Made by a program: the position numbers and the translations under genes. DNA of 31,890 nt from a virus. Every line of letters starts with the position of its first letter. Positions within the stretch are counted from its first letter, which is position 1. Positions 3,665-21,942 of the stretch are shown here, piece after piece. A model generated the notes under the pieces. That model made no database searches. It worked only from the letters and a program-made list of their open reading frames with translations, and had not been told where the DNA came from. The stretch spans positions 1-31,890 of the IMG/VR virus record IMGVR_UViG_3300048777_000032; one strand, 5' to 3'.

Positions 3665-4165
3665 TTACGACCCTACGTTTAGCTGGCCTGTAACACTTGC
3701 GAATGGCTGCTGCGATTGCGTGCGGCGCATTCTCGTGAAATACAGATCGACTATGTTCCTATCCATGTTTTTACATAACTTAAGCCTATTGACATACTCT
3801 TTGTTGTAGGCTTGTGCTAAGAATTGCCAATTAGCTCCAGCCCCGCGCTCCATCTCGTCGCCCTTACTACCTTCCTTCCACAATGAAAGCATTTCTAGGG
3901 CACGTAATTTAACCAGTTCCTCGGTAAGTGGAAAAGGAAGAGTGTCATTAGGGCTCACAAGTGCTGGCCAATTACCCTTATACCCAAATGAATACGGCAA
4001 TTCCGTGACAGGCCCTTCCCAAAGCTCAAAAAGTTGCTGCCCATAGGTAGCACTTCCTGCACGAATATCTGGACCGTAATAGACAACATACTCGGGCTGT
4101 GAATAGTCTGTTCTTTGAGGATCTTTCTCGCTCAAGTCGATTTGGTTAAGTGTCCACCAATCCAT
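3665..4165 (-). CDS. C-terminal half of an interrupted phage structural protein
   Basis: This 166-codon frame starts at the first ATG after an in-frame UAA (4195-4193) that ends the upstream frame. Both frames are in the same phase, separated by nine sense codons (IVDCTNNAT). No Shine-Dalgarno-like sequence precedes the ATG at 4165. The protein includes DPQRTDYSQPEYVVYYG, YELW-like LFELW, YPALV-like WPALV and DTLPFPLTEELV. In soil-phage structural proteins that I remember, similar motifs follow the FAAP.FK motif in one polypeptide. I therefore read this as the C-terminal part of one ancestral protein of about 435 residues. It may be made by readthrough or reinitiation, or not at all. Confidence 0.65.
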   Translation of the reverse strand: MDWWTLNQIDLSEKDPQRTDYSQPEYVVYYGPDIRAGSATYGQQLFELWEGPVTELPYSFGYKGNWPALVSPNDTLPFPLTEELVKLRALEMLSLWKEGSKGDEMERGAGANWQFLAQAYNKEYVNRLKLCKNMDRNIVDLYFTRMRRTQSQQPFASVTGQLNVGS

Positions 4166-4192
4166 TGTCGCGTTATTTGTGCAATCGACAAT

Positions 4193-4969
4193 TTAATACC
4201 ATTCCTTAAACCCAGCGGGGGCCGCAAAATACGCGACATACGCCATATAGCCACGATGAAGCTGTCTAGGATTTGTCCACAGTCTATCCAAGGTTAGGAC
4301 GGCTATCTGCGTCACAGTGAACGTAGCAGGAGTTCCACCCTCACTAAATACTACGTATGGATTTATGTATCCACTCCCGGCACTGATAACTTCTGAATAT
4401 TCTCTCGCGGTTCCATCCGCCTCCACGGTTATCGATACACTTCCTCCAGTTCCGGGGCCTCCGTTATCAAGCACGGGAATAGTATAAGTTCCGGGGGTCT
4501 GTCCTGATCCTTGAGTGAAGATCGTCGCATAGGCTATAGTTCCATTGCCTCCAATCGCAATGATGTTGTAGAGATCGTAGTATGGAACTCGAATCTGATA
4601 TACCGTAATGATCGGATTTTTCGCCTTGTACCACGCAGCCGTGGCTATAGCATCTCCGGTCATCTGGTCAGAATAAGGTTCGATTGAAATTGTACCCGGA
4701 CTTAGAAATCCGGGGTCTATTCCAAAATCGAAATCGGGCCTATCGGGATAGAAATTATGTTCATGATGATGTTCGTGACGATGCGAGTCTGGGTATACGT
4801 GGTCTCCTAGAAGCCCCGGAGCCAACCAACCTCCAGTCTTTAACTGGAAGGAGAATAGGTTTTCGTTCTGGATTGCTTCAAATGCTTCGTTAAGCTTTAT
4901 CTTAACGAGGCCGAGGTTAGTTCCAGAAATTGCTCCCAAGCACTCTTGGATCATGTTAGCGTATGCCAT
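4193..4969 (-). CDS. N-terminal half of an interrupted phage structural protein
   Basis: The 258-residue frame starts MAYANMIQECLGAISG with GGGGGTGGA upstream. Residues 1-130 look like the N-terminal domain of a neck/tail-type virion protein. Residues 63-72 form a His-rich loop (HRHEHHHEHN). Residues about 150-220 are a Gly/Thr/Val-rich beta module (GTYTIPVLDNGG ... ISAGSGYINP) of the same type as one in the protein at 7147-8001. The frame ends AYFAAPAGFKEWY at UAA, and similar-looking sequence then resumes in the same phase. A plus-strand homing endonuclease lies immediately upstream. Confidence 0.65.
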   Translation of the reverse strand: MAYANMIQECLGAISGTNLGLVKIKLNEAFEAIQNENLFSFQLKTGGWLAPGLLGDHVYPDSHRHEHHHEHNFYPDRPDFDFGIDPGFLSPGTISIEPYSDQMTGDAIATAAWYKAKNPIITVYQIRVPYYDLYNIIAIGGNGTIAYATIFTQGSGQTPGTYTIPVLDNGGPGTGGSVSITVEADGTAREYSEVISAGSGYINPYVVFSEGGTPATFTVTQIAVLTLDRLWTNPRQLHRGYMAYVAYFAAPAGFKEWY

Positions 4970-5036: not shown

Positions 5037-5579
5037 ATGAAACGCACCGTGAAGAGACACGCTGTTGTCCAGCCGCTTGACCAGTCTATCAAACTCATCC
5101 CACTGACACGCGGATTCAATGCTATAGTTAGTGCTTCTGATTTTTATCTCCTCAACCAATGGCATTGGTTTGCGATCCCATCCAAGAAAACGGAAACGGT
5201 TTATGTTGGAAGAATGGAGAGGAAATCGGATGGAACTAATAGACTCGTTCTGATGCATCGCTTCGTAGTCGGATGCGAAGAGGATGTTGACCATATTGAT
5301 CGCGATGGACTCAATAACACGCGAGATAACCTTCGCCCATGTAGCGAAACTCTCAATGCTGGTAACCAGAGGCTGCACAAATCCAATAAATCTGGATACA
5401 AGGGTGTGTCGTGGCATATTCCGACGCAGAAGTGGATTTGTAAAATTTATTTTCAAAACAAACAATTCCATTTGGGCCTTTTTGAAGACAAGATAGCCTG
5501 CGCACGCCGATACGACCGCAAAGCGCTCGAACTCTTTGGCGAGTTCGCTCGTCTCAATTTCCCGCGCTCTGATTACTAG
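5037..5579 (+). CDS. HNH homing endonuclease with AP2 DNA-binding domain
   Basis: This 180-residue free-standing endonuclease has an HNH motif: LMHRF (His74), DHIDRDGLNN (residues 85-94) and N98-L-R with the downstream CSETLNAGNQ segment. An AP2-type DNA-binding domain follows at about 120-176 (SGYKGVSWH...KWICKIYF...GLFED...A..YD..A...FGEFARLNFP). Such proteins cut alleles lacking the gene and spread by repair. It is on the opposite strand to its neighbours and is inserted between virion genes, typical of a mobile intruder. GAGGG lies seven bases before the start. A long minus-strand frame across the same region is its antisense shadow. Confidence 0.93.
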   Translation: MKRTVKRHAVVQPLDQSIKLIPLTRGFNAIVSASDFYLLNQWHWFAIPSKKTETVYVGRMERKSDGTNRLVLMHRFVVGCEEDVDHIDRDGLNNTRDNLRPCSETLNAGNQRLHKSNKSGYKGVSWHIPTQKWICKIYFQNKQFHLGLFEDKIACARRYDRKALELFGEFARLNFPRSDY

Positions 5580-5768: not shown

Positions 5769-5999
5769 TCATTTCCTCACAGTCGGTTTGACGTTCACAT
5801 ACTTCTTTGCGCCGCTCTTCTTTGTAATATTTTTCGGGGAAGTGGACGGATCTGCGTTAATTTTCTTCTCCGTTCCCGTTATTCTTTTCTGCGGATAAGT
5901 CACGCTCGACTTGTGGCCCTTTAGACCAATCGTGCGTTTTCCTTTTCCCACCGACTCTAAACTGTTTGCGGTAACCGAGTTGAATTGCGGGTCGCTCAT
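5769..5999 (-). CDS. Small basic protein sharing its N terminus with the major capsid protein
   Basis: This 76-residue protein starts MSDPQFNSVTANSLESVGKG. The major capsid protein (8617-9861) has NDPQFGEITANNLESVRRD at its N terminus: 11 of 15 positions from Asp-Pro-Gln-Phe to Glu-Ser-Val are identical. Nine of those 11 identical residues use different codons in the two genes, so the match is held at protein level and is not a fresh duplication. The rest is Lys/Thr/Ser-rich and ends VNVKPTVRK. AGAGAGGTAATAAG precedes the ATG. It follows a terminator-like hairpin and is coupled to the 57-residue basic protein. A minor virion or capsid-associated role is inferred. Confidence 0.75.
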   Translation of the reverse strand: MSDPQFNSVTANSLESVGKGKRTIGLKGHKSSVTYPQKRITGTEKKINADPSTSPKNITKKSGAKKYVNVKPTVRK

Positions 6000-6103: not shown

Positions 6104-7087
6104 TTAGAAAGTGCCCCCATAGCCACCGATCTGTACTACCTCAGCAGATAGATTCGTTCCTGCTGCAACTTCTCCGGGAGTGAAAGCTGGAAGACCACCT
6201 ACTACCGTAGTAGCTGTAGCGATAGTGACCGCTCCAGTATTCGCCAAGACTCGGCCATTCTGTGTGCCGCCACCCAGCGTAGCGCTTACTGCTGCCAGAA
6301 CGTTACCATTCATCGTCGAAGGAGCTACTGAGGTAAAGGAGCTACCAGCAACGAATACTACGTTAGAAGCCTGTGCTCCATTGATAAGGGATACTGCTTG
6401 TCCGCTGGCTAGGTTGATGGTTGAGGTAGCCACGAATACAAACTGTGCATTCGGATTACCTTGTGCATCCAGAATAATCCCTGTTGGCATAGACAGTGCT
6501 CCACCGAAATAGTTACCCGGTGTGTACGTCGATGCGGTGCTGCCATTTCCACCAGTGCTAAGGTCAGCCAAACCAGACAATGTTGGAGTGAGACCTTGGT
6601 AGTAAACGATAGCAGCGGCCAGTGCCGTCTGTGCAGCCGAAGCATCCGTATTGTCAATTACCGAAGGCGAAGTCAGAACGCCCGGAGGAAATCCTGTAAT
6701 ACTGGCCGTTGGAGCCGATCCAATATTTCCTTGAGCAATTACCGAACTTCCGGTATTCGTGATTCCTGAAGCACCCAACAAAGCATAGTTTGCTGCGCTA
6801 CCAAGACGTGTCGTAACGGAATTGAGAGAACTACCAGAAGCCGGTACAGTATTCCACTTCAGATTCCATTTTTGACGCACACCAAATCCTAACGGTTGCG
6901 GCGTAACAATATAGTTACCGCTCACCGTATACACAGAACCAAATACTGCGTCAATGTAAGAATTATATGTTGGGAGAACAATCTGATCCCCTCCAGTAAC
7001 ATAGGAAGACGGTCCAGAACCATACCCGGCCCAAGCGAAACGTCTTCCAATGAAATCGGGATAGCCGAATAAAAGATTAAGTTGCAT
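6104..7087 (-). CDS. Virion-type protein with an inserted DUF3494 (ice-binding-like) domain
   Basis: The start at 7087 (327 residues) is chosen because AAGGAG lies at ideal distance; the GTG at 7093 overlaps that spacing. Residues 1-90 (FGYPDFIGRRFAWAGYG... VSGNYIVTP) and the last 20 (LSAEVVQIGGYGGTF) read like a phage structural protein. Residues about 95-300 match the DUF3494 beta-solenoid family: ANYALLGASGITNTG, the hallmark TGFPPG, TYTPGNYFGGAL, LDAQGNPNAQFVFVATSTI, LINGAQASNVVF and a final GRVLANTGAVTIATATT. Known members include secreted bacterial and fungal ice-binding proteins and adhesins. There is no signal peptide here, which fits a virion part. Ice or glycan binding on the particle surface is inference. 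Confidence 0.85.
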   Translation of the reverse strand: MQLNLLFGYPDFIGRRFAWAGYGSGPSSYVTGGDQIVLPTYNSYIDAVFGSVYTVSGNYIVTPQPLGFGVRQKWNLKWNTVPASGSSLNSVTTRLGSAANYALLGASGITNTGSSVIAQGNIGSAPTASITGFPPGVLTSPSVIDNTDASAAQTALAAAIVYYQGLTPTLSGLADLSTGGNGSTASTYTPGNYFGGALSMPTGIILDAQGNPNAQFVFVATSTINLASGQAVSLINGAQASNVVFVAGSSFTSVAPSTMNGNVLAAVSATLGGGTQNGRVLANTGAVTIATATTVVGGLPAFTPGEVAAGTNLSAEVVQIGGYGGTF

Positions 7088-7120
7088 CGCCACTCCTTAG
7101 TGCTGTACTGCTAGAAATGC

Positions 7121-7146: not shown

Positions 7147-8001
7147 TTAGTCTTGAACAACCGAGCAGGCGTAACCAAGTTCAATCTTGAACAGATTGCT
7201 AACCAATGGTAGGTCAATTGCCAAACCAATGGTCGTGCTCGTTACGGCTGTCGTGGCGGTAGGAACATCCACAACACCACCAGTTGTCGGCTGGACTACA
7301 ACTCCAGTTGCTGCCGCTCCGGTAAATGGAGTAACCTTTCCGAGTACCGTAGCTGTTCCAAGTTCCTGAATGAATCCGTAGTTGCCCGGAGTGATCGAAT
7401 TCAAGAATACAACCGGACGAACCGCAACTCCTGTTACTCCAACCTGATCGAAGCTAGTAACGATGTTAGGAGACGTATCCAACTGAGCCGCAACCGTTCC
7501 GCCAATCGTTCCCGTAACCGTAAGCGGGAAAGTAGGAACAGAGTTGTATCCGAAGCCGGGATTCAGAACAGAGACTGCGGTGATTGTTCCACCTGAGCCA
7601 ACTACTACCTGAATGACTGCACCTAATCCACCATTGCCCAACGTGGCAGCAATCGGATAGGTTCCAGCTATCGCTCCAGTACCAGCAGCGGTGATAACTA
7701 CCGTCTTGACCATTCCGGAACTTCCACCTGCACGCAGATAGCCAACGGTGCCCGTCTTGACGTTCGCAGCCGTAGCACCAGAGTCAACAAGCACTAGACG
7801 ATAGCGCCCGCTATACAGAATGCCATTGACCCCGAAGGATGCATTTGCAGCTTCCTCATTGGTCGCGTCAAAAAAGTCGCCAAGGTTCAAGCCGCCTGCC
7901 GCGACAGGCTGACCGGAGTCAGGATCGGTGAGTCCGGTAGGCGAAGTGAAGTTCGCGTTGTTCCAAGCGCCCCACGTCGGAAGTGATTGAAGATTTGGCA
8001 T
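7147..8001 (-). CDS. Putative head decoration protein with an inserted beta module
   Basis: This 284-residue protein starts MPNLQSLPTWGAWNNANF after AAGGAG. It follows the capsid gene, apart from the intervening nuclease, the usual place of a head-decoration or stabilising protein. The C-terminal half (TPGNYGFIQELGTATVLGKV ... LGYACSVVQD) resembles small beta-rich decoration proteins of the DUF2190 kind. That assignment is from memory and moderate. Residues about 98-172 are a Gly/Thr/Val-rich module (GTYPIAATLGNGG ... VLNPGFGYNSVPTF) also found in the protein at 4193-4969, and appear inserted into the fold. No signal peptide or Cys cluster is present. Confidence 0.65.
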   Translation of the reverse strand: MPNLQSLPTWGAWNNANFTSPTGLTDPDSGQPVAAGGLNLGDFFDATNEEAANASFGVNGILYSGRYRLVLVDSGATAANVKTGTVGYLRAGGSSGMVKTVVITAAGTGAIAGTYPIAATLGNGGLGAVIQVVVGSGGTITAVSVLNPGFGYNSVPTFPLTVTGTIGGTVAAQLDTSPNIVTSFDQVGVTGVAVRPVVFLNSITPGNYGFIQELGTATVLGKVTPFTGAAATGVVVQPTTGGVVDVPTATTAVTSTTIGLAIDLPLVSNLFKIELGYACSVVQD

Positions 8002-8020: not shown

Positions 8021-8572
8021 CTAAAACTTTGTTACTTCTAAAACTTGTTCTACAGAACTTTCAATCAACTCGCTGCTCATAGCTTCCACATCGAGCAAGT
8101 CCCAGCGATCTTCCATATCCCGCAAACGCCCTTCAGTCATCTTCTGGGCATACTTCTTATTTTGTGAATTGCTTTCATAGCCACGGTGTGTAAACCAAAC
8201 CGTCTGTCCTGCTCCCTTTGTAGGGAGAATGAAAAACCGATTTTCGTCGATACCCCAAAGAATAAAGAAGTCTGCAACTTCAGAGTATGGACGCAGAGCG
8301 GATTTACGGTATCTCTTAGAGAGGCTATCCCATGCTCCGCGTTGCAAGTTGAAAAGATAACCGGGATACTGGAAAGCCTTCGAGTGAACTCTTAGGTGAG
8401 AGCATTTAACTTGAATGCGTAGCCCGTTTCCAAGCATGACATCGAAGCCGCCATCGACAGCAGGAAACATCACATTATGGCCCAAGAGAGACAGTTTTGA
8501 CGCCACCGCATATTCCGCAGCCTTAGCCTTCAACTGAAACTCGTTTCCGAATTGTGATATCTTCTTTGTCAT
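8021..8572 (-). CDS. PD-(D/E)XK nuclease, intron/homing-endonuclease type
   Basis: The start at 8572 (183 residues, MTKKISQFGN) is supported by AGGAG; the longer frame to 8614 lacks this. The N-terminal half has AAEYAVASKLSLLGHNVMFPAVDGG, then FDVMLGNGLRIQVKCS: Asp44 and Gln54-Val-Lys56 form the D-Xn-(E/Q)-X-K catalytic core, with Glu20 in the first helix. This layout matches PD-(D/E)XK endonucleases associated with group I introns and free-standing homing genes. It sits between the capsid and decoration genes, where such enzymes often insert, on the same strand as its host operon. The cut site is unknown. A housekeeping role in DNA repair or recombination cannot be excluded. Confidence 0.75.
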   Translation of the reverse strand: MTKKISQFGNEFQLKAKAAEYAVASKLSLLGHNVMFPAVDGGFDVMLGNGLRIQVKCSHLRVHSKAFQYPGYLFNLQRGAWDSLSKRYRKSALRPYSEVADFFILWGIDENRFFILPTKGAGQTVWFTHRGYESNSQNKKYAQKMTEGRLRDMEDRWDLLDVEAMSSELIESSVEQVLEVTKF

Positions 8573-8616
8573 TGGTTGATTTCTCCTAGTTACAGTATAA
8601 AGTACTGCAACCAAGA

Positions 8617-9861
8617 TTACGAGCTAAACCCAAAAGAATAAGCATTATGGCGTGGCTGAGCGCAGTAGAGGTTGATTCCCAAGCGCATCATGATGCCGTC
8701 CACCGAAACGTTGTTCTGCTGCGGAACACGGCGCACGCCAAACTTGAACCCAGACTTGTTTGTCGGACGAACCTTGAAGCTCTCAGGCTCAAGGAAGTAC
8801 AACGCTTCTGAAGGCTGAATGGTTGTGTTCGACGGTAGACCAGAGTTGGTTCGCGAGAAGTTGATTGCTCCACCCTGCGCGTTCGTGAACTGAGGCGTCG
8901 TGAATGGAATCGTCGCGGTGCTCGATCCTACGCCGTCCACCAAGCTCGTGTTACCAGCCGCTCCGCCTGCTGCCTGACCCAGAGGAATGTAATACTGGGC
9001 GGTTGCCGATGGCGCGAGAGGATCAGAGTAGATTTCTACGCCGTTGTAGCTGAAGGCTACCCACTCAAGATCGTGCTTCTTCAACTGGATGTCACGGCGC
9101 TGCGCATCGAGCGCAATCGCGATAGCCGCAAAGCCGAAGCCGTTCGTGATGCCCAGCGTAGGCTTGCCACCGCAGGTTGTGATCTGTGTCCAGAGCTTCT
9201 GCAAGGAAGCAACGTCGATCTGTCCTGTTCCGCCCGAGGCTGTTCCGAGATACTGAGGCGTCGAGTTCCATGTGATGCCGACGTTCCCATTCCTCGTCTG
9301 CCCGCCGTAGGTCGTATAGCGGTTGCCGTAGAGCGAAGGATCGATGCCGTTATTCAGCGCCTCATCCAGCCCGTTCGAGCACTTGATGCGGTTGTCGCTG
9401 ATGGTCGCATTGTTTGCCTGCCCGTGACGGAAGGAGTCCATTTCGAGCATGGTGTTGATGTTCATCACCATGTTCTCCATATAGAGACCGTACACGTCTG
9501 CAATCTTCGCAGGGCCGGAGTTAATCACGCCGCCCGTACCTGAGCCGTCGTCCATTTCCCACTCGTCCATCGGGAACCACGAGACATACAGCTTCGGATA
9601 GAACTTTACCTTGGTGTCGATCTGCTGACGAGTCAGCGTAACCGTCTGTCCGGGATTGACAGCCGCGCCCTGAGCACGACCGTACTGGATGACTTCCGTC
9701 ATGCCAGCGCCGCCAAGGAAGTCTTCCCACACGCCCGCCCTGCGCAGCTTTGCTTGGAACGGAGTGTCAACGAATAACTGATTCCACACTACGTCACGTC
9801 TTACGCTTTCGAGGTTGTTGGCTGTTATTTCCCCGAACTGTGGATCATTTGGAAGGCTCAT
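8617..9861 (-). CDS. Major capsid protein
   Basis: This 414-residue protein forms the phage head shell. Features typical of HK97-fold coat proteins of podovirus-like phages are WNQLFVDTPFQAKLRRAGVWEDFLGG near the N terminus and GQTVTLTRQQIDTKVKFYPKLYVSWFPM. A long middle domain and a C-terminal FLEPESFKVRPTNKSGFKFGVRR...DGIMMRLGINLYCAQPR block follow. It lies immediately downstream of an Ala/Glu-rich scaffold gene and has AGGAG upstream. The first 24 residues include DPQFGEITANNLESV, which recurs at the start of the 76-residue basic protein at 5769-5999. I assign it from gene order and overall pattern; no single catalytic motif exists. Confidence 0.88.
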   Translation of the reverse strand: MSLPNDPQFGEITANNLESVRRDVVWNQLFVDTPFQAKLRRAGVWEDFLGGAGMTEVIQYGRAQGAAVNPGQTVTLTRQQIDTKVKFYPKLYVSWFPMDEWEMDDGSGTGGVINSGPAKIADVYGLYMENMVMNINTMLEMDSFRHGQANNATISDNRIKCSNGLDEALNNGIDPSLYGNRYTTYGGQTRNGNVGITWNSTPQYLGTASGGTGQIDVASLQKLWTQITTCGGKPTLGITNGFGFAAIAIALDAQRRDIQLKKHDLEWVAFSYNGVEIYSDPLAPSATAQYYIPLGQAAGGAAGNTSLVDGVGSSTATIPFTTPQFTNAQGGAINFSRTNSGLPSNTTIQPSEALYFLEPESFKVRPTNKSGFKFGVRRVPQQNNVSVDGIMMRLGINLYCAQPRHNAYSFGFSS

Positions 9862-11900: not shown

Positions 11901-13994
11901 TTATCCGCTCTGACTAACTACTGACCGTGGTTCCCCGCCCTTGGCTCCTTTTTGCTTCACACGAGGGGCTTTAGTCCCACTAGCGGGCCTTCCACCACCA
12001 TGCGGTTTAGCTCCACCAGCATCTCCACCGCCCTGCAACTCCTGAGGATCAATTCCCAGTTTCTTCATTGTCTGCATGAGGTCAATCTGAGCAAACATCT
12101 TGAGTTTAGCGAGTTTTTCATCTTCTTTAAATGACTGCTCCTGCTCGCCCTCGGCATTATTAATGTCCATCGCCTTCATGATCGTAATCCATGAAATTGG
12201 TGCGCCGCCCTTCTTTAATTGCAGCAGCATCAATTGGTACTGCACCTGAGTTACCTTGAGCAGTGTGCTTGGAACCGAGACTAGCCTGATCTGCTTTACA
12301 AACCACCTAGCCCGTTCGAGTTGCGTATACTTCGATTCCGTTTCCGGGAATCCAGCACCTACCATCTCATCTGGTAAGTGGCTAGGAACGAGGTCGTTTG
12401 GGTTGTAGTCAAACGTCTCCGCAGCCATATTCTCCGGACCTACATATTCCATGATCCTTTGAGTGTCAAACCATTGAAGAATAAGATACTTCATCCTAAG
12501 CCCGACAGATTTATTCGCCTTCTCAACCCTAGCTGCAATGCCTTTTCCTACCGGCCCAATAGTTTCCATCATCTTGTCGGCAGTATCTGAGGCGATCTGG
12601 AGTTTCATGTTCGCGCCGAGACTTCCCAAATCTTCCAGACCGAGTTGCTTACCTTCCTTCTCGTTGAGGTATTTCAGGTAGTTGAAATGCTCACTTCCTA
12701 CGCGAACCTCATCCGGCAGAATCGATTGGAATGTTTCCTTCGGCTTTCCATCTACTCCTAGCCGCACATCCGGCTCGAAGATGTCGAAGTGCTCAATCTT
12801 AGGTCCACCTGTATCCGTATGGTTGTAGCCCATTGGTGGATTCATGGTGGCGGTCAGGACTTGATCCATCAACCGCTCATGCTTCCTGATTGTCGTTTCA
12901 ATGCTGGCTACGTCGCCTACGATAGACCGTCCTAGCGGCTCCCATGCCCAGTCATCCACCGTGTACTGGATAATTGGCATACGAGGGTCCCAGTCGAAAG
13001 CTGGACCGTCGTACATAGGCTTACCCATACCCGTTGAGGTAATGATGAGCCGCAGATTTGGGTATACCCGGCAATGCTCTGGTCCGGCAGGTATATAGTA
13101 TGGTTCCCCATTCCTCATCCCTCCAAAGATTCTTTGGCCAACATACGGGACACGGTAGAACCATGTGGTCCCAACGTCTCCCATTGGGAGTTCGTATCCT
13201 GTGTTGTTGATCCTCAAGTCCCGCACGAAGGTGTAACGGATTTCGGCGTAGAGATTGCCAAATGTCCTGCCCACATCTCCGTAACGGTTCCTCTCCGCAT
13301 AATCGACTCGCTGCGCCTGCATCCGCGTCTGGTAGTTCCGACGCATCCCCACCGTCTGAATATCTCTTTGAAAGAGTGGAAACCGTCCATGCGCCTCCGC
13401 AATAGGCATGTAATCGTAGATTGTGACCGCGTAGGCATCCTGAATATCATTGGTGCGGGAAGGAATCTGGGTAGGAATCACGTCTAATAGTCCTAGCGCG
13501 TCAAATTCCATCCTCCTCTCGCCGTACCCGTACTCCGTCGCTCTAACCTTCGGCCACAGATATCCAATCCCCATAACGGAGGCATATTGCAGGACTTTGA
13601 GGATTTGAAAGGGGAAATCGCTTTCGAGATAAACGCATTTGCTGACTTTCGTCAACATCTCGGACATTTTCTTGTAGCTTGGGTTATCCGACCCATAACC
13701 CGCAATTTCTCTAACCTGCGCCAGTGTCTCGCAGAACTTCCGAATATCGTATTTGAGATTATTTGTTACGAGGCTGGAGCGGCATTTATCGTTGAATACC
13801 GCATTAAACACCCGCAAATTCTTGGGCAAATCCTTATAGCATTTCTGCGCTTCTAGAAAACCTTCACCTTCCTGAATTTGAGATTCTACCCACGCGTAAA
13901 TCTCTTCAGGATGGGAAATGAAGAACGGTGCCTGCCAACTACTAGTTTCGTTTTTATCGCGAAACCAAGACGAGCTTTCTCCCATTATTGGCAA
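11901..13994 (-). CDS. Portal protein
   Basis: The 697-residue protein should form the dodecameric ring through which DNA enters and leaves the head. Supporting features are its size, its position between the terminase and the scaffold/capsid genes, and DVASIETTIRKHERLMDQVL followed by TATMNPPMGY, a region I associate with portals of podovirus-like phages. A basic, Gly/Lys-rich disordered tail follows (about 650-697). The start is uncertain: the TTG at 13994 has GAGTG nearby, while the ATG at 13985 has no clear ribosome binding site. A promoter with a GCGC box lies 75-105 bases upstream. Confidence 0.85.
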   Translation of the reverse strand: MPIMGESSSWFRDKNETSSWQAPFFISHPEEIYAWVESQIQEGEGFLEAQKCYKDLPKNLRVFNAVFNDKCRSSLVTNNLKYDIRKFCETLAQVREIAGYGSDNPSYKKMSEMLTKVSKCVYLESDFPFQILKVLQYASVMGIGYLWPKVRATEYGYGERRMEFDALGLLDVIPTQIPSRTNDIQDAYAVTIYDYMPIAEAHGRFPLFQRDIQTVGMRRNYQTRMQAQRVDYAERNRYGDVGRTFGNLYAEIRYTFVRDLRINNTGYELPMGDVGTTWFYRVPYVGQRIFGGMRNGEPYYIPAGPEHCRVYPNLRLIITSTGMGKPMYDGPAFDWDPRMPIIQYTVDDWAWEPLGRSIVGDVASIETTIRKHERLMDQVLTATMNPPMGYNHTDTGGPKIEHFDIFEPDVRLGVDGKPKETFQSILPDEVRVGSEHFNYLKYLNEKEGKQLGLEDLGSLGANMKLQIASDTADKMMETIGPVGKGIAARVEKANKSVGLRMKYLILQWFDTQRIMEYVGPENMAAETFDYNPNDLVPSHLPDEMVGAGFPETESKYTQLERARWFVKQIRLVSVPSTLLKVTQVQYQLMLLQLKKGGAPISWITIMKAMDINNAEGEQEQSFKEDEKLAKLKMFAQIDLMQTMKKLGIDPQELQGGGDAGGAKPHGGGRPASGTKAPRVKQKGAKGGEPRSVVSQSG

Positions 13995-19788: not shown

Positions 19789-21942
19789 TTACCATCCGTC
19801 GCCCACGTCCATCTGATTTGCGCTTCCCGGACCCTTTGGGCGTTCCTTCTTCTTTGGCGGAGCGCTTCGTTGTTGAGCACGCTCTGTCAGAATGTCCATG
19901 TCGTGGGCCGTGAAATAGCTCTGCGCCGCAGCACGCACTCGGTCGTCATGCTGTCCTGAACGATGTTCCATCTTCGATTTTCCTGCGGACTCATGGCGTT
20001 CAAGAGTTCGTAACTCCTCAATCAGCCACTTCGACTTAGGAATATACCAACCACCGTTGACAGCCTCGCGGAAACGGTCCATTAACATCGGCACAGACCA
20101 CGCGCTTGAATACCAGCCTTCCTTTTTGCCAGCGTCATCCTTGATCTTCTTTGAGTCATAGCGACGAGGCTTATGCATATTATTGAAACCTAACATCTTC
20201 AACTGATGCTGGCAGGTGTCACCGGGGCCTCTAATCTGTTCAATTACATACTTCATCCCCTTGCCGTCAGGACTCTTCTTTCCGTACCACGCACCTACGC
20301 AGGCAGCGAAGGCTACGACTTGCGCCGAGTTCACTTTATTTGTAGTGTACTCAGCGCATTGCTGATCGCTATCTCCTTTGAACCTATTATTCGTTACGGA
20401 AAGTACAGTCCTATCCTCGTCCTCTTTACCTAAACCATCTGCTGTATCAACCCCACAAGCATAATAGTTCCCACGCTCCGGTGGCTCGTAAACGAGCAGA
20501 CGATCCATCGTATTACTCTCAATTGTTTCGTCCTGATCCTTGAGGGGAACCATTGTCCATTCATACTCCTGCCCACGAAACGACTTCCACTCGACTTTGA
20601 TCTTTTCCTTCGTTTGGTCAATAGAGTCCGGGTCAGGATGAAAGATTTCATCTACATCGTGCCCCATGATGGCATAGGCTTGGACAGGAATGCGACGTTC
20701 CTTTATTTCCTTCCCACCTTCCATCCTCACTTCGTAGATGTTGTTCTCTACCTCCGCAATCACTTCGGGATCAAACACGCTGTCGTGAACACCAGTGAGG
20801 GCTTCAAAGTCATCCGCAGGCATCTGCGCGGCCCACGTCTTCTGTGTATGTGTTTTACAAGAGGTGTCATAGTTGAACTGCCAAAACCATTTCTGCTCAA
20901 TCGGCATACGCCAGTCGCGTCCAGCAACCTTAGATAGATAAGGGGTATTGCGCACGAACGATTCACATTTAATGACATGCTTTCTAGTTGTATCGTGGAT
21001 TTGCGATTCAAACCCACCGGGAACAGGAAACTTACGAAGCCAATCCTGTTCTGGATAAATGTCGGGGCACATCGCCCAAGGAATAAACACTGGACATAGC
21101 CGTGACTTTCCTTGCGGATAATCTTCCTTAGCCGCTCTCCAAGTCTCTGCAAGCCACCCAGTGTTTCCACCGCCAGTTCCTTCGAGCACCATAAAAAGAT
21201 TCTTCGATGAGTGAGTAGCTCGGAATAGTCCTTCTTCGATGGTTACTTTAGGGTTAGGGTAATCAGCCAATTCTGATAAATGTATACAAGTTGGTGTCCA
21301 ACCTTGCGCTAGTCCTGTTGCCTGACTACCCGACTGGATAGATAGGATCGATTCATTATCGAACTGGTTTTTCGAGGTGCGCCGAGGTACCAGCCACCAA
21401 GCAGAACGATTGTAAGCAGTGTCCAAAATCCTTCTGATTAGTTCCGAGCGTTCCTTCTGTACGGATGCCATGACCGCTTGGGTGTGTGGGATGAACAATA
21501 AGCGATGGATAAACTTGAGTGCCGTCTTTGTCGTGATACCCAATTGCCGAGCCTTAAGAATCAGCATTTCAATCGACACTTGCTTCTCGTCAAACTCGGC
21601 AATTACTGAGTCAAAAATCTCCTGAGAACGGCGATTCTTGAACTTAAACATCTGGCCCTTCTCATCGCAAACCCAAGCATAACGAGATTCCCAATAACTA
21701 CTATCAAGCCCGCAAAGAACTTGCTCGTTCTGAATCCAATGCCTTATTTCTTTCTGCCTGCTCGCACTGATCTTTTTAGTAAGAAATATCTGACTGGTTT
21801 TCGAGTTAGACTCAACCCTCATTAGAGAGTCTATGTACTTCGTGAAGTCCAGCACCTCATCATACGAGTGGTACCGGGGAAGCCATTTATTGACACTCTC
21901 GAATTCCTCTATATTAGAATTTACAGTCTTTGGAGAATACAC
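19789..21942 (-). CDS. Terminase large subunit (DNA packaging ATPase/nuclease)
   Basis: The 717-residue motor pumps DNA into the prohead and cuts the concatemer. The Walker A-like motif is KARQLGITT (130-138), the Walker B-like motif is CIHLSE (219-224), and the coupling region LEGTGGG is near 254-260. The RNase H-fold nuclease domain starts about 490 with YACGVDTADG (Asp499) and includes HDDRVRAA near 670. A basic C-terminal tail (PPKKKERPKG) follows. The start is GTG, directly after the upstream TAA, with AGAGG nearby; no other start lies in the first 40 codons. It ends TAA. The upstream partner is the putative small terminase. Confidence 0.95.
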   Translation of the reverse strand: MYSPKTVNSNIEEFESVNKWLPRYHSYDEVLDFTKYIDSLMRVESNSKTSQIFLTKKISASRQKEIRHWIQNEQVLCGLDSSYWESRYAWVCDEKGQMFKFKNRRSQEIFDSVIAEFDEKQVSIEMLILKARQLGITTKTALKFIHRLLFIPHTQAVMASVQKERSELIRRILDTAYNRSAWWLVPRRTSKNQFDNESILSIQSGSQATGLAQGWTPTCIHLSELADYPNPKVTIEEGLFRATHSSKNLFMVLEGTGGGNTGWLAETWRAAKEDYPQGKSRLCPVFIPWAMCPDIYPEQDWLRKFPVPGGFESQIHDTTRKHVIKCESFVRNTPYLSKVAGRDWRMPIEQKWFWQFNYDTSCKTHTQKTWAAQMPADDFEALTGVHDSVFDPEVIAEVENNIYEVRMEGGKEIKERRIPVQAYAIMGHDVDEIFHPDPDSIDQTKEKIKVEWKSFRGQEYEWTMVPLKDQDETIESNTMDRLLVYEPPERGNYYACGVDTADGLGKEDEDRTVLSVTNNRFKGDSDQQCAEYTTNKVNSAQVVAFAACVGAWYGKKSPDGKGMKYVIEQIRGPGDTCQHQLKMLGFNNMHKPRRYDSKKIKDDAGKKEGWYSSAWSVPMLMDRFREAVNGGWYIPKSKWLIEELRTLERHESAGKSKMEHRSGQHDDRVRAAAQSYFTAHDMDILTERAQQRSAPPKKKERPKGPGSANQMDVGDGW

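Follow-up and report, generated by a model that had tools for sequence, protein, structure and literature searches.

A DUF3494 ice-binding-like domain inserted into a head-region phage protein, a candidate swappable virion module

The carrier gene and its surroundings

The window analyzed here is a stretch of viral DNA of 31,890 nucleotides in which one minus-strand gene (6104..7087, stop codon at 6104-6106) encodes a 327-aa protein, the carrier, in which a DUF3494 domain interrupts a small scaffold predicted to be a beta-sandwich. Residues 1-82 (6842..7087, minus strand), the N-terminal portion of this scaffold, bear the conserved series GYPDxIGRR...GPxSYV...YIDAxFG...RxxWxLxW, recognized in alignments and by hmmsearch. 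The DUF3494 (PF11999) ice-binding-like beta-solenoid occupies residues 93-296 (6200..6811, minus strand) and was delimited by profile, PDB sequence matches, AlphaFold2, Foldseek, and VIA-align. The C-terminal part (residues 305-327, GEVAAGTNLSAEVVQIGGYGGTF; 6107..6175, minus strand) rejoins the same beta-sandwich, as judged from alignments, model, and tree. The ATG at 7087 is the preferred start because a ribosome-binding site, AAGGAG (7093..7098, minus strand; direct reading), lies 5 nt upstream and homologues share that first residue; an alternative GTG at 7093 overlaps the same AAGGAG (7098-7093). The motifs quoted in an earlier note on this DNA all occur in the ORF, and its statement that a signal peptide is missing agrees with a crude hydropathy test, which found no hydrophobic leader at the N-terminus of the window protein or of its scaffold homologues. 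Chimeric assembly is ruled out, since independently assembled contigs of separate samples share this fusion gene.

The genes around the carrier, all on the minus strand, belong to a block of head genes. Upstream lie a decoration-like protein (284 aa, 7147..8001) with a GxGYxxxP module, a conserved neighbor by synteny with a weak match to the head closure family phrog_460, and a major head protein (MCP; 414 aa, 8617..9861; phrog_9953, E 6.8e-6; 25% identity over 99% to gp8 of phage Tunturi_1), whose position upstream of the carrier is conserved. Farther upstream are the portal protein (11901..13994; 27% to Tunturi_1 gp3, annotated as portal) and the terminase large subunit (19789..21942; phrog_5989; 28.6% over 87% to Tunturi_1 gp1). 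Two conserved downstream neighbors of 258 and 166 aa (3665..4969) complete the block, and the second resembles Tunturi_1 gp11, a “tail protein.” In all scaffold loci with enough sequence, the order portal - g9897 - MCP - decoration-like gene - carrier - g4193 - g3665 is constant, whatever the slot of the scaffold contains. The earlier description of the two ends as a phage structural protein fits this setting, a conserved head-block gene that follows those for the major head protein and the decoration-like protein; presence in the particle itself is still something we infer.

Several smaller features accompany the block. A nuclease-like ORF of 197 aa (8021-8614, minus strand) separates the major head protein from the decoration-like gene; it looks mobile, as L017 has it in this position too (56% identity) and it is missing from L006, L010, and L018. 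Directly downstream of the DUF3494 gene, on the opposite strand, lies an HNH homing-type endonuclease (5037-5579, plus strand; phrog_99, E 3e-34). A 76-aa ORF (5769-5999, minus strand) starts with MSDPQFNSVTANSLESV, resembling the N-terminus of the major head protein (DPQFGEITANNLESV), and diverges thereafter; it is possibly an N-terminal fragment of a head protein or a shared motif. The GxGYxxxP module is present in the products of both 7147-8001 and 4193-4969 (minus strand), and because their lengths differ among relatives, both neighbors may be plug-in slots themselves.

Among cultured phages, Tunturi_1 and Tunturi_2 are nearest (major head protein 25%, terminase 28.6%); both are podoviruses of Tunturiibacter (Acidobacteriota) from soil of the Finnish Arctic tundra (PMC11924767). 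The head-gene block of Tunturi_1 has a corresponding place for the scaffold gene. This place, after the MCP and gp9 and thus two genes past the head protein, is occupied by gp10 (XJP11499.1, 108 aa, hypothetical), which resembles the empty scaffold (profile E 2.6e-12 among 8 proteins) but differs from the window protein in its missing insert and distant sequence. The main text of the Tunturi paper reports no virion proteomics. Searches of cultured phages gave no match to the window protein at E 0.01, none to the domain of L008 at E 10, and, with the ice-binding protein 6eio as query, nothing above chance level. As its nearest cultured relatives infect Acidobacteriota, the host of the window’s phage is probably an acidobacterium; this assignment is drawn from Tunturi_1, since the prophage route yielded one weak, partial MCP match in 396 Acidobacteriota genomes.

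The inserted domain and the scaffold fold

By profile and by predicted fold, the window ORF holds a complete DUF3494 domain. PF11999 matches the protein with an E value of 4.6e-32 and 111.8 bits against a cut-off of 28.7, over residues 106-295 of the 329-aa reading and profile positions 2-206 of 208. A phmmer search of PDB sequences returned 23 matches, nearly all named as ice-binding or antifreeze proteins (best 6eio, E 8e-20). The AlphaFold2 model of the full protein, built from a 37-row alignment, has a pLDDT of 91.4 and falls below 50 only at the linker (residues 83-87). In this model, both protein ends form one beta-rich domain, and between them lies the three-sided irregular beta-solenoid with a long helix (residues 149-164) alongside that DUF3494 requires. 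Foldseek matches the model to 6eio (E 2.7e-12) and 7bwy (target-normalized TM 0.87), and VIA-align superposes it on 7bwx with Z 31.1 and an rmsd of 1.3 Å over 196 residues. The family assignment made earlier from sequence motifs is thus upheld on both counts that could have overturned it: the profile match is strong, and the predicted fold is that of the family.

The domain shares its whole-domain profile match, beta-solenoid, and flanking helix with solved ice-binding proteins (AnpIBP 7bwx, 6eio, and SfIBP_1 6bg8), and is 33-34% identical to the best of these structures over about 200 residues. Known DUF3494 proteins are secreted or cell-surface proteins. In contrast, the window domain is nested in a head-region phage protein that lacks a signal peptide, and it is unusually charge-poor.

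The scaffold is less easily placed. Foldseek found no significant PDB match for it (best E 0.35, to a protein other than 4mtm). The top VIA-align match is 4mtm, a phage tail-fiber knob, with residues 4 to 325 aligned (Z 6.3), and the empty scaffold modeled alone gives the same best match (Z 5.4); both values lie under 8, in the range of common arrangements, and a gp53-like knob fold would be a tentative reading. An alignment joining residue 4 to residue 325 fits two ends that form one domain, even if such a Z can reflect a common arrangement.

Empty and filled slots

Both the domain and the scaffold served as queries against viral contigs, and slot state was then scored by script over the loci. 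The scaffold-only scan gave no matches with the single window sequence as query and succeeded with alignment A2. Four slot states are found: empty (proteins of 110-126 aa), filled with a GxGYxxxP module of about 70 aa (184-185 aa), filled otherwise (L035, 404 aa), and filled with DUF3494. The empty gene is present in L051, L054, L055, L058, L059, and L060, and fillings other than DUF3494 occur in L001, L042-L047, and L035. Two slot states can also stand side by side in one phage. In L006, L010, L017, and L018, adjacent copies include one with DUF3494 and one empty; their flanks are 72-78% identical in DNA on the N side and 65-73% on the C side, and the flanks enclose 12 aa in the empty copies versus 227-229 aa in the filled ones. 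In L001-L005, the filled copy is followed by a GxGY copy.

DUF3494 in this protein is an insertion into a loop of the scaffold. The earlier note had called the domain inserted, and the same flanks were indeed recovered without it, both empty and otherwise filled, including in adjacent copies within one phage. Because the slot of relatives is empty or differently filled, the fold appears to be used by phages as a swappable surface attachment.

Exchange of the domain between carriers

Exchange of DUF3494 between carriers is clear from comparison of the sequences. Two DUF3494 copies share a single contig (L004/L007), one in the scaffold and one near the end of a 1290-aa protein; their DNA is 79% identical over the domain only, and outside it the proteins are unrelated. 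The domain of the window is 82% identical to the copy in the 1290-aa protein versus 77% to those that L001 and L006 carry in the scaffold. In L027, a homologue of the 1290-aa protein matches it until the domain begins and differs from there on.

In the scaffold tree, from which the insert was left out, a single clade of DUF3494-bearing copies is rejected (p-AU 1e-75), and four such copies are placed among empty ones; in the underlying alignment, the C-flank of the Tunturi row is offset by one column, which affects that outgroup alone. The filled state requires at least three changes on the head-protein tree. In the domain trees, however, one clade for the DUF3494 copies of this scaffold is compatible with the data (p-AU 0.09 and 0.12); the number of separate entries is therefore uncertain, and it is the scaffold tree, together with the shared-domain evidence, that speaks for repeated entry. 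When 46 bacterial domains are included, a single long-stemmed clade (100/99) takes in 20 of the 21 phage domains. A quick-method tree with 60 phage domains likewise keeps most together and places a few, including the tail sheath copy described below, among bacterial ones. Bacterial domains were sampled by pattern (41 loci were obtained with A4), so a closer donor among bacteria may have been overlooked.

Such mobility could belong to a selfish or neutral domain that inserts well in loops and is tolerated there with no ligand to bind. That the domain has entered unrelated carriers repeatedly, and that near relatives have lost it or lack it, would suit this account; against it, the DUF3494 copies listed by a PF11999 search of 25 records have an open frame with no internal stops, and copies retain 55-80% identity. 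A selfish or neutral domain of this kind is rated unlikely.

Other viral carriers and display on the particle

Viral contigs encode about 60 distinct DUF3494 proteins. L015 and L016 carry the domain, and the L015 gene lies two genes past a major head protein; its product, alone among the carriers, also has a weak Big_2 match outside the DUF3494 domain. A second empty-slot case comes from an unrelated phage (L022), in which a DUF3494 gene just after the MCP is followed by two domain-free paralogues. The large DUF3494 carriers are proteins of 1290-1776 aa. Two DUF3494 domains are found within a single phage protein at L162:2253-6410 and at L134:3291-5813.

The domain is also inserted in a contractile tail sheath protein (L168:4191-8015 and L169:494-4318). 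The L168 protein matches phrog_10581 (E 7e-213), PF17482 (Phage_sheath_1C), and PF11999 (E 8e-34), with DUF3494 at residues 266-448. The sheath of phage Paride aligns to its residues 1-212 and 532-1269, so that about 20 Paride residues stand against 319 in L168. The insertion in L168 and L169 falls inside the motif INGTTVxI...TLxxLV, which is contiguous in Agrobacterium phage Atu_ph07. A tail sheath protein is part of the virion, and DUF3494 can therefore be built into a virion component. The suggestion that the window domain is a virion surface module gains from these sheath proteins and from the other head-region and fiber-like carriers.

Gene position, the empty homologues, and the tail sheath case together point to the window protein being in the particle. 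The carrier is probably a small virion protein, either a head-region decoration or a short-fiber subunit, that presents DUF3494 from its slot as an outward binding surface. Our preferred reading is a swappable display module on the virion, by analogy with phage Ig-like/Hoc domains. In this relative of Tunturi_1, a podovirus of Acidobacteriota, the two protein ends would fold into one beta-sandwich that attaches to the head or tail of the particle; a loop of the sandwich would serve as the slot into which phages plug differing domains, and here the DUF3494 beta-solenoid would fill it, facing outward. Exposed in this manner, the domain may provide weak, multivalent adhesion to a surface of the habitat, whether the host envelope and its polysaccharide or ice.

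Phage Ig-like/Hoc decoration proteins (PMC10385173) likewise pair a particle-binding scaffold with a variable, exchangeable display domain, as the carrier probably does. They differ in that the display domain of the carrier is a DUF3494 beta-solenoid rather than an Ig fold, and sits inside a loop, not at one end of the chain. Exchangeable virion display domains are already known; DUF3494 in that role is, as far as was found, new, and a search of a literature collection with few subscription journals found nothing joining DUF3494 and phage. With two clear empty-slot cases and the tail sheath, the solenoid would be a further fold, beside Ig-like domains, in the set that phages shuffle on their particles.

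Viral PF11999 genes have been given another meaning. In PMC11515562, “ice-binding-like” auxiliary metabolic genes of Arctic marine viruses are read as host cryoprotection, and PMC8407431 mentions one antifreeze gene in that sense; the viral PF11999 genes share the Pfam family of the window domain and differ in this reading. Applied to the window, it would make the carrier a secreted auxiliary protein that shields the infected host from ice. Besides this precedent, a clear signal peptide in 2 of the 61 viral ORFs examined (crude test) lends it something; but the window protein has no such peptide, its domain is joined to the product of a head-region gene that is conserved, and an empty homologue persists minus the domain; secretion is very improbable here. 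Most virome PF11999 matches in this survey look like particle proteins, not host ice-protection genes, which alters the way such matches are to be interpreted. Synechococcus phage S-SKS1 is named in PMC11515562 as having ice-binding-like homologues; a PF11999 search of its whole record (NC_020851) was empty at E 1.

Candidate ligands

To judge from Hoc and further Ig-like domains (PMC10385173, PMC13370021), the displayed domain most likely serves adhesion in general. Its ligand may be host or matrix material or may be ice; both are sub-cases of the display module, and their likelihoods are not to be added to that of the display reading itself. If DUF3494 serves just as a stable solenoid whose surface binds host envelope glycans, an S-layer, or exopolysaccharide, it would raise adsorption. 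Phage carriers of DUF3494 are diverse and include tail sheath and fiber-like proteins, where adhesive Ig-like domains are usually located (PMC10385173, PMC13370021), and special conservation of the ice-binding B-face is absent; on the other side, the DUF3494 members of solved structure are ice binders. Host or matrix binding is tentatively entertained, at somewhat below even chances.

The B-face of AnpIBP allows the ice alternative to be examined. Mutation of its S153 and T156 lowered thermal hysteresis to 17% (PMC7277481). In the phage copies, AnpIBP B-face positions are mostly Ser, Thr, Ala, Gly, or Val; the S153 equivalent is Ser in 18 of 20 copies, and the T156 equivalent is Thr in 19 of 20. 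Conservation is no higher on this face than elsewhere in the domain (entropy 0.83 vs. 0.78, permutation P 0.66). The ice-binding face that the earlier note proposed to check for has fitting small and hydroxyl residue types and no extra conservation. Charged residues make up 1-6% of the domain in phage copies versus a mean of 7% in bacterial copies, and an uncharged B-face says little when the whole phage domain is charge-poor. As the residue types of the face are kept, yet without special conservation and in a charge-poor domain, ice binding is a putative function of the window domain.

An exposed DUF3494 that binds ice would hold particles at ice or protect them through freeze-thaw. The nearest solved relatives are ice-binding proteins, the B-face retains the S153 and T156 equivalents noted above, and the host of the nearest cultured phage comes from Arctic tundra; set against these, the face lacks extra conservation, charge is low throughout, and the fold does not prove the ligand. 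Ice adhesion by the virion is therefore a doubtful sub-case. The broader proposal that cold-soil phages carry ice-adhesive particles, on which multivalent DUF3494 on the head (and, in other phages, on the tail sheath) binds ice, is a speculative one and a shade less probable still. If true, an ice-binding virion trait would control survival or dispersal in freezing habitats. Whether a virus particle binds ice is open to direct test, for which the natural empty and filled versions of the scaffold are ready controls.
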